A stretch of DNA of 64,000 bases from Flavobacteriaceae bacterium (GTDB taxonomy: Bacteria; Bacteroidota; Bacteroidia; Flavobacteriales; Flavobacteriaceae), in contig JAOXRU010000012.1 in assembly GCA_025800395.1 (NCBI GenBank), forward strand, positions 62,001 to 126,000, given 5' to 3'. The notes below the pieces were generated by a model. That model searched no databases, had not been told where the DNA came from, and worked only from the letters and a program-made list of their open reading frames with translations. Position numbers and translations under genes: made by a program. This document shows positions 8,582-13,775 of this stretch, piece after piece (position 1 is the first letter of the stretch; each line of letters starts with the position of its first letter).

Positions 8582-11500
8582 ATGGAACAAACTACACCTT
8601 ATAATCCTACAAATAAAGTAAGAGTGGTAACTGCGGCCTCCCTTTTTGATGGGCATGATGCTGCTATTAACATCATGCGACGTATTATTCAGGCAACTGG
8701 AGTGGAAGTGATTCATTTGGGGCACGACCGTAGCGTGGAAGAGGTAGTGAATACTGCAATACAAGAAGATGTAAATGCCATAGCCATGACTTCCTATCAG
8801 GGAGGGCATAATGAATATTTCAAGTATATGTATGATCTCTTGCAAGAGAATGGTGCTGGGCATATAAAAATATTTGGCGGCGGTGGCGGTGTAATTCTCC
8901 CTGAAGAAATAGAAGATTTACATGCATACGGCATTACTCGGATTTATTCTCCTGACGATGGAAGGGAAATGGGGTTGCAAGGGATGATAAATGATTTGGT
9001 TCGGCAAAGCGATTATACCATTGGAGACCGCTTAGAAGTAGGTATAAAAGATTTACAAGCCAAGAAAGTTCCAGCTATAGCGAGAGCAATTAGCGCTGCA
9101 GAAAATCACCCAGAGGTTGCAGCATCCTTATTAGAAAATGTAAAAGAAGCCAATAAAAGTAGCGTGACTCCAGTGCTAGGAATCACCGGAACAGGTGGGG
9201 CAGGAAAATCTAGTTTGGTAGACGAATTGGTTCGTAGGTTTTTGTTATATTTCCCAGATAAGCAGTTGGCTATTGTTTCTGTAGACCCTTCCAAAAGAAA
9301 GACCGGTGGTGCTTTATTGGGAGATCGTATTCGTATGAATGCGATAAATAGTAGCAGGGTTTATATGCGCTCTCTGGCAACCCGACAAAGCAATTTGGCA
9401 TTATCTAAGTATGTAGCAGAGGCGGTGGAAATCTTAAAAGCTGCGCAATATGATCTAATCATCTTGGAAACATCGGGTATAGGACAGTCCGATACAGAAA
9501 TACTAGAACATTCGGACGCTTCTTTGTATGTGATGACTCCAGAATTTGGTGCTGCTACTCAGTTAGAAAAAATTGATATGCTCGATTTTGCCGATTTAGT
9601 AGCCATAAACAAATTTGATAAAAGAGGTGCATTAGATGCCTTGCGTGATGTAAAGAAGCAATACCAGCGCAATCATAACTTATGGGAGACGGGAATAGAT
9701 GACTTACCAGTTTTTGGAACCATAGCATCTCAGTTCAACGATCCTGGTATGAACAAGCTATATAAGGCAATCATGGATTTGGTAAATAGTAAAACTACTG
9801 CCAAGCTAGAATCTGGAATGGCTATTACCAAGGCTATGAGCGAAAAGGTGTATGTGATTCCTCCAAATAGAACAAGATATTTGTCGGAGATTGCGGAGAA
9901 CAATAGGGGTTACGATGAAAAAGGGAATACCCAACAGGAAGTAGCACAAAAATTATATGGAATTTATAAGACCATTGAAAGTGTTATAGGAGTAGCACCT
10001 ACGAAGACGAAAAATGGTATAGAACTCGCAGCAACAGACACCAATGAGGAGCAACAAATGTTGGTAGATCTGCTGTTAAAGGAATTTGATAGGGTGAAGA
10101 TGAATTTAGATCCGTATCATTGGGAAACCATATTAGGATGGGATGCATTAGTAGCGCGATATAAGGCACCAGAATATATTTTTAGGGTAAGAAATAAGGA
10201 GATAAAAATGGCTACGCACACCAAGAGTTTGTCACATAGTGACATTCCTAAGGTGAGTTTGCCAAAATATCAAGCATGGGGAGACATATTGGCTTGGTGT
10301 TTACAAGAAAATGTGCCCGGTGCATTCCCTTACACTGCCGGACTTTATCCTTTTAAACGAACAGGAGAAGACCCTACGCGCATGTTTGCTGGAGAAGGAG
10401 GACCAGAGCGTACCAATAGACGTTTTCATTATGTAAGTATGGCTATGACTGCTAAGCGATTGTCTACTGCTTTTGATTCGGTTACTCTATATGGAAACGA
10501 CCCAGACCTTAGACCAGATATATATGGAAAAATAGGGAATTCTGGGGTGTCTATTTGTTGTTTGGACGATGCAAAAAAATTGTATTCAGGATTTGATTTA
10601 GTTGCAAATACCACTTCGGTGAGTATGACCATTAATGGACCAGCTCCGATGATGTTGGGCTTCTTTATGAATGCCGCCATAGACCAACAATGCGAGGTGT
10701 ATATCAAAGAGAATGGTTTAGAAGCTGATGTGGAGAAGAAGATAACGGCATTCTATAAAGGAAAAGAAAGACCAAAATACGAAGGAGAGTTACCAGAAGG
10801 ACACAATGGGCTTGGTTTGCTATTGCTTGGGGTAACAGGAGATCAGGTGTTGGAGGAATCCGTATATCAAGAAATTAAGCTTAGAACGCTTACTCAGGTA
10901 AGAGGAACCGTTCAAGCAGACATTTTGAAAGAAGATCAGGCGCAAAATACGTGTATCTTCTCCACCGAATTTGCATTGCGATTGATGGGTGATGTGCAAG
11001 AATATTTTATAGATAAAGGCGTGCGTAACTTTTATTCGGTTTCTATCTCAGGTTACCATATAGCAGAAGCAGGCGCAAACCCTATATCGCAATTGGCTTT
11101 TACTTTGGCAAACGGATTTACTTATGTAGAATACTACTTAAGTCGCGGAATGGATATTAACCAATTTGGACCAAATTTATCCTTTTTCTTTAGTAATGGG
11201 GTAGATCCAGAATATGCAGTAATTGGTAGGGTAGCTCGAAGATTATGGGCAAAAGCCTTGAAGCATAAATACGGTGCCAATTCCAGAGCACAGATGTTAA
11301 AATATCATATACAAACCTCTGGTAGAAGTTTGCATGCTCAGGAAATCGACTTTAATGATATTAGAACCACATTGCAAGCTTTGTATGCGATTTATGACAA
11401 TTGTAATTCCTTGCATACCAATGCTTATGATGAGGCAATAACCACGCCAACAGAAGAATCGGTTCGTAGGGCTATGGCTATACAGTTGATTATCAATAAA

Positions 11501-12001
11501 GAATTGGGCTTGGCCAAAAATGAGAATCCAATTCAGGGCGCTTTTATCATTGAAGAATTGACCGATTTGGTGGAAGAAGCAGTATTGATGGAATTTGATA
11601 GAATCACCGAGCGGGGTGGAGTGCTTGGCGCTATGGAAACCATGTATCAACGTAGTAAAATACAAGAAGAAAGCTTGTATTATGAAACCCTCAAGCACAC
11701 AGGAGAGTATCCTATTGTAGGGGTAAATACCTTTTTGAGTTCCAAAGGATCGCCAACTGTAATTCCTACCGAAGTCATTCGTGCAACAGAAGAAGAAAAA
11801 AAGGTACAGATCAACACGTTAAATAAGTTACATAGCAGGTTTGAATCAGAAGCAAAAGAAGCCTTGCAAAAGGTATCTTATGCTGCTGTAAATAACGAAA
11901 ATATATTTGAAGCTTTAATGGAGGCGGCTAAAGTTTGTTCTATAGGTCAGATTACCAATGCATTGTTTAAAGTGGGTGGGCAGTACAGAAGAAATATGTA
12001 G
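8582..12001 (+). CDS. icmF: Fused isobutyryl-CoA mutase/methylmalonyl-CoA mutase family (IcmF)
   Basis: 1139 residues with the IcmF order: an N-terminal B12-binding domain (residues 1-150; DGHD near 23 and SYQGG, GGGGG further on), a MeaI-type G-protein chaperone (P-loop GTGGAGKSS near 202-210, NKFDKRG as guanine specificity motif), a linker, and the large mutase subunit ([18 protein letters not shown] from about 585 to the end). IcmF interconverts isobutyryl-CoA and n-butyryl-CoA with adenosylcobalamin, and its GTPase gates cofactor loading. Which acyl-CoA is used here cannot be read with certainty. Single gene with ATG at 8582. An HMG-CoA-lyase-like gene at 21 kb suits branched-chain acyl-CoA catabolism. 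Confidence 0.92.
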
Positions 12002-12063
12002 AAAAGTGCATCTTTTTAGTGCTTAGTCCGTCTTATTAATAGAAACATTAAAAGAATAAATCT

Positions 12064-12165
12064 ATGTCATCTAAAAATTGTACCTGTAAATGTGAAAACT
12101 GTAGAAAAGGAAACTGCGGCGGTTGTACTTGTGAAAACTGTAGTTGTAATCATTGTACTTGTTAA
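12064..12165 (+). CDS. Metallothionein-like 33-residue cysteine-rich peptide
   Basis: ATG at 12064 to TAA at 12163-12165 encodes 33 residues, 11 of them cysteine. The pattern is CxCxCxxC in the first half and CxxCxCxxCxCxxCxC in the second (for example CTCKCENC and CTCENCSC), with no aromatic residues and few hydrophobic ones. That composition is the hallmark of small metallothioneins, which bind Cu(I), Zn or Cd through thiolates; no named family was recognised. It lies 62 bp after icmF and 52 bp before a sigma factor gene on the same strand. A weak hairpin (AAAGGC with GCCTTT, about 12172-12202) separates them. Metal binding is inferred from composition alone. Confidence 0.72.
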   Translation: MSSKNCTCKCENCRKGNCGGCTCENCSCNHCTC

Positions 12166-12217
12166 ATTAAAAAAAGGCTATACTAGTATTGGTGTGGCCT
12201 TTAATATTTTTAGAACT

Positions 12218-12769
12218 ATGCAATTAAATATAGAGGCTATTTGGGCGGCAACACATGAAGCGGTTTATGCATTTGCATTAAAGAAACTTCAGGATGTCGA
12301 TTTGGCAAAAGATATTACCCAAGAGGTGTATCTAACTTTGTTGGATAAGCAAGAGCAACTACAAGACACGGATAAGATAAAATCTTGGTTGCTAACCGTT
12401 ACGTACAGAAAATGCATGGATGTGTTTCGCCTTAAACAAAAAAACTATGGGATAGCTGCCGAAGAATCAGAAAAGATCATTTCTCTCGCAGAAGAAGCGC
12501 ATGATGTACAGGATTGTATGCAGGGAATTTTAAACCAAATGCCTGAAAAATATGCTACTCCATTGCGTATGGTATCTATGGAAGGACTAAAGCAACAACA
12601 AATAGCAGAACGCATGAATCTACCGCTTACTACTGTGAAAACAAGAATTCTACGAGCAAAAAAAATGTTGGCACAAGGCTATATAGATTGTTGCGACTTT
12701 CGCTATAACGATAAAGGCTATTTAGTGGGTGCAGTAAAAAGCAAAGCGGATTGTAAAGTTTGTAGATAA
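12218..12769 (+). CDS. SigZ-like ECF sigma factor with Cys-rich C-terminus
   Basis: 183 residues from MQLNIEAIWA. Region 2 (about 1-75) has FALKKLQDVDLAKDITQEVYL and SWLLTVTYRKCMD; region 4 (about 105-155) has MPEKYATPLRMVSMEGLKQQ then LPLTTVKTRILRAKK, a helix-turn-helix for the -35 box. This is an extracytoplasmic-function sigma factor resembling SigZ. The last 25 residues carry CC near the start of the tail and CKVC at the very end, a possible four-thiolate metal or redox site. No anti-sigma gene is adjacent. The frame is open to 12092, but that would overlap the metallothionein-like gene; 12218 matches the family start. Confidence 0.88.
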   Translation: MQLNIEAIWAATHEAVYAFALKKLQDVDLAKDITQEVYLTLLDKQEQLQDTDKIKSWLLTVTYRKCMDVFRLKQKNYGIAAEESEKIISLAEEAHDVQDCMQGILNQMPEKYATPLRMVSMEGLKQQQIAERMNLPLTTVKTRILRAKKMLAQGYIDCCDFRYNDKGYLVGAVKSKADCKVCR

Positions 12770-12777
12770 GTTTATCC

Positions 12778-13182
12778 TTATAAAGTTTCTGACCAAGTTT
12801 TGTAAAGAGAAGTTAGTTTTTGTAATTCTCTTCTAAAAACACCAAGATATTCCTTAGCATTCGGGTAGCTACTATATAGTTGTTGTGATCTCCAATTTAA
12901 ACTAGCAATTGTTTGTTGCATTTGACTGAGCTCCGATTGCTTTAAGCTTGGATTTTTTGTGCTAAAAATAGTTGCGATGCTTTGCGGTACTAGCAATACA
13001 TTCATGATAAGCAGACTGGTTTGCTGATCGGTAGCATGTTGGCTAGAGTGCATTTGTTGTATGCTTTTGTTGTTGGTGAGCACTACACCAAGCCCTCTTC
13101 CTAACTGGAATAAGGATAAGGCCTGTCGGTAGACAGGTAGATCTCTCAAATCATTTTGATCTTCTTGGGGAATATTCGCCAT
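12778..13182 (-). CDS. Hypothetical helical protein
   Basis: 134 residues, soluble and rich in Gln, Ser and Leu, with no signal peptide. Predicted helices such as PVYRQALSLFQLGRGLGVVL and YLGVFRRELQKLTSLYKTW suggest an all-alpha fold. The stop codon lies 8 bp from that of the converging sigma factor. No family was recognised. There is an ATG, a clean frame, and no competing frame. Confidence 0.6.
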   Translation of the reverse strand: MANIPQEDQNDLRDLPVYRQALSLFQLGRGLGVVLTNNKSIQQMHSSQHATDQQTSLLIMNVLLVPQSIATIFSTKNPSLKQSELSQMQQTIASLNWRSQQLYSSYPNAKEYLGVFRRELQKLTSLYKTWSETL

Positions 13183-13325: not shown

Positions 13326-13775
13326 ATGCAGGCTATACATCATAATATGGATTTGTTTAACAAACATATTCTCAAATTACTACAGAAAAACGCTCGAATA
13401 AGTAATGCGGAAATCGGAAGACGGGTTGGGCTGAGTTCGCCTGCGGTTTCTGAGCGAATAAAAAAAATGGAAGATGCGGGAGTGATTAGGGGGTACGGCG
13501 TACAGCTAAGCCCTTACGAGATAGGATATCAGATTACAGCTATAATCAGTCTTCGAGTTTTTATGGGGCGACTACGCCCATTTTTGCAGCAAGTGGATAA
13601 TTTCAAAGAAATTGTAAATTGCTATCGAATTACTGGTAATGAAAACATCATAATGGAAGTAGTTTTATCCAACCAAAAGCATTTGGAGGAATTGATTAAT
13701 CAATTAATACAGTATGGGGAAACAAAAACCAATGTAGTTTTGTCTCGTTTGGTGGAAAACAATATCATCGAATGA
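13326..13775 (+). CDS. Lrp/AsnC family transcriptional regulator
   Basis: 149 residues. The N-terminal winged helix-turn-helix (about 8-65) reads LLQKNARISNAEIGRRVGLSSPAVSERIKKMEDAGVI, split by the usual turn. The RAM ligand-binding domain follows (about 75-149; ITGNENIIMEVV). Family members sense amino acids and control their metabolism or export. The target is not visible; the neighbours (sigma factor locus and a secreted protein) are unrelated. The start may be ATG 13326 or 13347, the latter (MDLFNKHIL) closer to the family norm. Confidence 0.92.
   Translation: MQAIHHNMDLFNKHILKLLQKNARISNAEIGRRVGLSSPAVSERIKKMEDAGVIRGYGVQLSPYEIGYQITAIISLRVFMGRLRPFLQQVDNFKEIVNCYRITGNENIIMEVVLSNQKHLEELINQLIQYGETKTNVVLSRLVENNIIE

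Follow-up and report, generated by a model that had tools for sequence, protein, structure and literature searches.

The micro-gene and its sigma factor

The locus lies in a window of 64,000 nucleotides, by which we mean the whole stretch of DNA that was analysed. It consists of a metallothionein-like micro-gene followed on the same strand by the gene of a SigZ-like ECF sigma factor, whose ATG at 12218 stands 52 bp past the micro-gene stop (Table 1). An earlier note, made from the sequence alone, had described exactly this arrangement of a 33-codon, 11-Cys ORF ahead of a sigma factor. An ECF-type promoter precedes the micro-gene, and a terminator-like hairpin occupies the gap between both genes. 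On the 5' side, a 1139-aa ORF (8582-12001, +) looks by eye like an IcmF-type fused acyl-CoA mutase. On the 3' side of the sigma gene follow a 134-aa gene without family (12778-13182, -) and an Lrp-type regulator (13326-13775, +). None of these neighbours is an anti-sigma gene, as had been noted before. The genome is a 4.17 Mb draft of 667 contigs with an estimated contamination of 7.7%; another genome (G013, locus L010) has the same order of a reverse-strand gene and an Lrp-type regulator, and these conserved neighbours support the window locus despite the draft assembly.

Table 1. Features of the locus, in window positions
Feature	Position	Strand	Basis
Micro-gene, metallothionein-like, 33 aa, 11 Cys	12064..12165	+	ORF calling; conserved 5' of sigma; omega ~0.067
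SigZ-like ECF sigma factor gene, 183 aa	12218..12769	+	Profile matches; structure model (pLDDT 87) matching ECF sigma structures
ECF-type promoter: TGCATCTTTTT (-35-like, 12007-12017) and CGTCTTA (-10-like, 12029-12035)	12007..12035	+	56 distinct upstream sequences share motif and spacing
Terminator-like hairpin, 13-bp stem, then AATATTTTT	12173..12202	+	Folding energy and z-score
C100 codon, sigma2-sigma4 linker	12515..12517	+	Conserved in the micro-gene clade
Sigma Cys tail, C158-C159 and C179-x2-C182	12689..12766	+	Alignment of 25 SigZ-like sigmas

The product of the micro-gene is MSSKNCTCKCENCRKGNCGGCTCENCSCNHCTC. Cysteines make up 33% of it and follow the pattern C-x-C-x-C-x2-C-x4-C-x2-C-x-C-x2-C-x-C-x2-C-x-C. 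There is one His and no Phe, Trp or Tyr, and with its high content of Cys in CxC and CxxC clusters the peptide has the composition of a metallothionein. Within the window it is the sole ORF of at most 80 aa with at least 8 Cys and at least 12% Cys, and around 60 other sigma loci the flanking DNA yielded only 3 ORFs of this kind per 408 kb, which all seem to be accidental frames. Across 19 distinct sequences of the 11-Cys type and 9 of the 14-Cys type, codon comparison gave an omega of about 0.067. Among homologues no Cys column varies, although the codon switches between TGT and TGC, and conservation extends to several positions other than Cys. Freely varying cysteines, which the earlier note had named as an argument against its proposal, were thus found nowhere among dozens of homologues. 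By these codon comparisons the micro-gene is under strong purifying selection, and a chance ORF is ruled out by the codon analysis and the background counts.

Direct searches found homologues just 5' of orthologous sigma genes in two relatives of the same family, and reading of the upstream sequence added a third relative with a 14-Cys homologue in the same place. No Pfam or NCBIfam model matched the window peptide at E <= 1, no Pfam model matched any of 20 relatives and analogues, and a resembling solved structure was not found in the PDB; a known metallothionein family was rejected on these grounds. The peptide family was likewise not found in the databases and open-access papers searched. 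Bacterial metallothioneins like SmtA/BmtA and MymT are very small, Cys-rich proteins with CxC and CxxC clusters and no aromatic residue. The peptide described here shares the small size, the clusters and the lack of aromatics, and differs in being shorter (33 aa) and in its Cys spacing. The best reading is that of a predicted metallothionein, which would bind several d10 metal ions via thiolate clusters.

In the case of the sigma factor, SigZ models gave the best scores over nearly the full length, tail included: NF007215 with 131 bits (E = 5e-38) and TIGR02959 with 120 bits (E = 7e-35), both below the curated cut-offs of 212 and 168.65 bits, and with the next sigma family at 3e-23. Because the SigZ models score best yet under their cut-offs, SigZ-like is the right label, as the earlier note had chosen it; judged by profile scores, the protein is SigZ-like and not SigZ proper. 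SigZ (TIGR02959 / PRK09637; Bacillus subtilis and others) is thus the nearest named family, with relatives carrying a CC...CxxC tail across phyla. A 2023 table of B. subtilis enters SigZ only as 'ECF' (PMC10141391). In the open-access literature searched, neither a function for SigZ nor a paper linking it with metallothionein was found.

The tail has the pattern CC-x19-CxxC. The earlier note had placed both motifs in the last 25 residues, which is correct for CxxC (residues 179-182), whereas the CC pair (158-159) lies just outside. A fifth conserved Cys, C100, is situated in the linker. Among 25 aligned SigZ-like sigmas from Bacteroidota, Nitrospirota, Cyanobacteriota, Planctomycetota, Chloroflexota and Bacillota, C158 and C159 are invariant, C179 is nearly so, most have the CxxC, and C100 is common. 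The Cys tail is therefore shared by the wider SigZ-like family and not special to the pair described here. In the structure model the tail seems compact, with a helix end, a hairpin and a short helix; the pTM of 0.48 leaves the placement of the domains unsure.

Linkage, promoter and predicted regulon

Gene order was surveyed in 396 Flavobacteriales genomes, where a sigma reaching 167 bits or more with the subfamily profile was taken as a subfamily member. All 15 members had the micro-gene on their 5' side, and none of the 11 next-best sigmas read (116-147 bits) did. A separate scan of species-representative genomes gave 14 further subfamily loci, again all with the micro-gene 5' of sigma; their hosts are Olleya, Oceanihabitans, Seonamhaeicola, Gelidibacter, Bizionia, Tenacibaculum, Polaribacter, Aequorivita, Salegentibacter, Psychroflexus, a Saprospiraceae genome and three other Flavobacteriaceae. 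Pooled, the linkage amounts to 29/29 subfamily loci versus 0/11 of the next-closest sigmas (p = 4e-10), a count that includes two loci of the second survey (L126, L135) which are near-copies of loci of the first. In one further genus, all 37 distinct promoter-linked micro-genes had the sigma gene behind them, one with an intervening gene. The earlier note would have given up its proposal if the micro-ORF were not conserved next to SigZ homologs; across these 29/29 and 37/37 subfamily loci it is.

Sigmas with the 11-Cys peptide and those with the 14-Cys peptide fall into two supported clades of the sigma tree (98/90 and 100/99), which are probably sisters (support 91/88). The window sigma forms a long branch (1.46) and is divergent. 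Two genomes of another family (G412, G427) have an 11-Cys gene without a close sigma, and by eye the promoter motif is lost before these sigma-less genes, with a housekeeping-like promoter in its place. By eye as well, such a sigma-less 11-Cys micro-gene with a housekeeping-like promoter lies 5' of a GlcG/HbpS-like gene in family f5 (L046, L051). Gene order and promoter sequences show micro-gene and sigma to be a conserved two-gene unit of marine flavobacteria, with a probable role in metal defence.

The promoter, TGCATCTTTTT-N11-CGTCTW, stands at a fixed spacing before the micro-gene, 28 bp from its start in the window; the 56 distinct upstream sequences gave the consensus TGcATCTTTTT...GTCTA. 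The exact pattern occurs once in the whole genome, at 12007-12034. Allowing one mismatch, 7 matches were obtained versus 4 for the reversed control, which is little excess, and the sites read adjoin genes without an evident link. A large regulon in this genome is ruled out by these two counts, and no exporter with the exact promoter was found in it.

The picture is broader in genus g58 (59 genomes), where the scan gave 57 sites versus 4 for the reversed control. In most cases the micro-gene follows. Other sites lie ahead of metal transporters, namely CDF exporters (in 7 genomes), a heavy-metal ATPase of the P1B type and an RND pump of the CusA/CzcA family, and ahead of DUF3703 genes, a TonB receptor and, beside a second SigZ-like sigma, a gene resembling quinone oxidoreductases. 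Here, the CDF and P1B-ATPase targets score above curated cut-offs, while the RND fragment, cut by the end of the locus, is below its own. The promoter was present in 37 of the 42 genomes with the sigma versus 1 of the 17 without it (p = 2.8e-9), and this single exception sits inside a gene. At several loci a separate copy of the promoter belongs to a DUF3703 gene and lies about 385 bp before that of the micro-gene (L303:1543-1893, with equivalents in L293, L299, L314, L328 and L337); DUF3703 may be a metal-stress protein.

From the co-occurrence of sigma and promoter we infer that the sigma factor recognises this sequence. As the promoter is both conserved and found together with the sigma, there is strong support for the earlier note's idea of the peptide as the first target of the sigma. 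Regarding the signal, the window genome lacks a promoter-bearing exporter, so that the identity of the metal is judged by the exporters of the related genus; these make Zn/Cd-type metals the likeliest signal in this clade, with Cu or As(III) possible. Next to the micro-gene clade no conserved ars gene was found, and its exporter targets are of the divalent-metal type; an arsenic signal is therefore kept for distant relatives only.

The hairpin between both genes has a folding energy of -16.8 kcal/mol (z = -4.15) in the window. In 26 of 28 homologous intergenic regions z was below -2, with a mean of -4.7, and T-rich sequence often follows. A few loci lack the hairpin and some members have almost no gap. 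In some genomes it resembles a dispersed repeat (e.g. GTCACCTTGAGCGCAGTCGAAAGG; L059, L060, L129, L290, L308). The natural reading is that the hairpin keeps the peptide message abundant and the sigma low.

A proposed metal-stress circuit and its alternatives

We read the locus as a self-contained, autoregulated metal-stress circuit in which the sigma factor would switch on the metallothionein, and put the probability of this at roughly 0.7. In detail, a basal promoter and read-through past the hairpin would provide a low level of the sigma. A rise in soft or borderline metal ions would render it active, the likeliest sensor, by analogy with CorE, being its CC...CxxC tail together with linker C100. 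The active sigma would bring RNA polymerase to the promoter of the micro-gene, and the short transcript would yield abundant 11-Cys peptide, by which the metal would be bound. Some read-through would supply more sigma, until free metal falls and the loop turns off. In the window genome the micro-gene and the sigma seem to be the sole targets; in the related genus the exporters would respond too. The metal-stress module suggested by the earlier note is thus well supported by the linkage, the promoter and the metal-gene regulon. Concerning its choice of a metal or thiol signal, the predicted regulon of this clade favours metals and speaks against hypochlorite or peroxide, and among the roles it offered for the peptide that of a sink fits best.

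That the sigma senses through its own Cys tail is plausible from the comparison with CorE. In CorE, the metal dependence of an ECF sigma factor comes from a Cys-rich domain at the C-terminus, whose deletion or mutation removes or changes the control by metal (PMC3107203; PMC8999054). With CorE/CorE2 (former ECF44 and ECF238; Myxococcus xanthus) our sigma shares a short Cys-rich C-terminal extension, a Cys feature in the linker, the lack of a linked anti-sigma gene and a metal-export regulon, here a predicted one (PMC3107203, PMC8999054). In contrast, the four invariant Cys of the CorE tail read C-x2-C...C-x-C (PMC3107203) and not CC-x19-CxxC, its linker has CXC where our sigma has a single conserved Cys, and SigZ models score our sigma best. 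Moreover, the main predicted target here is a metallothionein gene, and none is described for the CorE regulon in PMC3107203. By Cys pattern the sigma is not a member of CorE; by analogy, it may work like one.

The tail could also be a structural zinc site. It would then be a zinc knuckle only, with control at the level of transcription or through a different regulator; another metal sensor would set the level of the sigma, and the peptide would still be a metallothionein made from the sigma's promoter. The compact shape of the modelled tail would suit this, CC and CxxC motifs may do no more than hold Zn, and at several loci sequences like housekeeping promoters were seen by eye between hairpin and sigma. 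However, no other regulator is conserved beside the pair, and CorE is proof that such a tail can sense (PMC3107203). We consider this explanation unlikely, although it is the one that fares best among the alternatives.

Somewhat less likely still is that the peptide mainly regulates the sigma, with the apo-peptide stripping metal from the tail, or the peptide binding the sigma, so that it would give negative feedback rather than bulk storage of metal. The strict one-to-one pairing within the subfamily points in this direction, as does the match of 11-Cys and 14-Cys types with two sister sigma clades. Against it, sigma-less copies exist, the regulon mates are exporters, and unrelated peptides pair with SigZ-like sigmas on the 5' or 3' side, which suits the buffering of metal more than a specific protein interface. 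Control of the sigma's metal loading by the peptide, a role the earlier note had listed, is given the same low chance and would be compatible with a sink.

Thiol oxidation or electrophiles as the signal, with the tail as a disulfide switch and the peptide as a thiol buffer, seem improbable. Vicinal and CxxC cysteines are suited to redox switching, a Trx-like gene with SCCxKG occurs at some SigZ-like loci, and one promoter precedes the quinone oxidoreductase-like gene; the predicted regulon, however, consists mostly of metal exporters, and distant loci have mostly arsenic genes.

Least probable, with only a slight chance, is a cis-acting Cys leader, where translation of Cys codons, or a nascent chain that senses metal, would control the terminator before sigma: the order of short Cys-rich ORF, hairpin and regulator gene would allow it and CruR, whose nascent upstream-ORF protein senses Cu, is a precedent (PMC9426467), but conserved non-Cys residues and the low omega, the near absence of gap or hairpin in some members, the sigma-less copies, peptide types 3' of sigma and the lack of a RAPP-like end all argue against it. 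An antiterminator pairing of the ORF with the hairpin was not evident either, as the local fold was kept in 58 of 61 full leaders with no evident competing structure. CruR itself (DUF2946, Bordetella) is a copper-responsive upstream ORF whose action in cis involves CXXC and a RAPP motif at the C-terminus (PMC9426467). Like our micro-gene it is a small Cys-containing ORF at the head of a metal-related unit (PMC9426467), and unlike it, our peptide has no DUF2946 similarity (no Pfam match) and no RAPP, ends in NHCTC and is conserved as a product.

The wider SigZ-like family

A related promoter, TGCRTC[C/T]TTTT...CGTC, was found in distant members of the family. It precedes ArsI/CadI in Nitrospira, a Cys-rich DF-family protein in Leptolyngbyaceae, arsenite methyltransferase in Syntrophomonadaceae and Thermobaculum, and CCVP-repeat peptides at two planctomycete-type loci. 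Genes for ACR3, ArsA, ArsC and an ArsP-type permease lie near distant SigZ-like loci, and ArsM, ArsI/CadI, ACR3 and ArsA score above NCBIfam cut-offs there. Judging from these neighbours, distant SigZ-like sigmas seem to serve arsenic.

In a Bacteroidota-wide sample, an ars-type gene lay within 5 kb of 21 of 40 SigZ-like loci versus 2 of 20 control sigma loci (p = 0.002), where both control matches are weak methyltransferases and many ArsI-like matches hold at the superfamily level only. The promoter was found at 16/40 versus 0/20 (p = 0.0005) and a Cys-rich micro-ORF at 10/40 versus 0/20 (p = 0.02). A further subgroup of SigZ-like sigmas has genes for a Trx-like protein of 78-81 aa (SCCxKG) and an ArsP/SaoE-type permease behind it (L013, L016, L017, L251, L257, L267).

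The micro-peptides of the family are of several apparently unrelated types, 5' or 3' of sigma. Between a SigZ-type promoter and a SigZ-like sigma, a 64-aa CCVP-repeat peptide with about 15 Cys was observed at planctomycete-type loci (L146:2788-2982; L152:2533-2727), apparently a pair that arose independently. Beside Bacteroidota SigZ-like sigmas there are 8-Cys 26-aa, 13-Cys 43-aa, 10-Cys 32-aa and other ORFs; small Cys-rich ORFs start about 600-715 bp past the sigma start in L238, L244, L246 and L240, and lie 5' of sigma in L258, L259 and L261.

From these comparisons the wider family looks like a regulator of metal and arsenic stress in several phyla. We hold more tentatively, at slightly less than an even chance, that SigZ-type sigmas with CC...CxxC are cytoplasmic one-component metal and metalloid sensors across phyla, which would share this promoter code and would, on several independent occasions, have taken up unrelated Cys-rich micro-peptides (of the 11/14-Cys, CCVP-repeat, 8-Cys and other types) as dedicated metal sinks alongside arsenic or divalent-metal exporters.

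SigZ-type sigmas are widespread, and the present analysis offers a testable role for them, with a promoter sequence, predicted targets and candidates for both the sensing cysteines and the signals. A further gain are families of unmodelled micro-metallothioneins, small enough for gene callers to miss, and the analysis suggests that such peptides were paired several times independently with the same kind of sigma factor. As a one-gene sensor with a sharp promoter, the system could possibly serve as a part for metal or arsenic biosensors.
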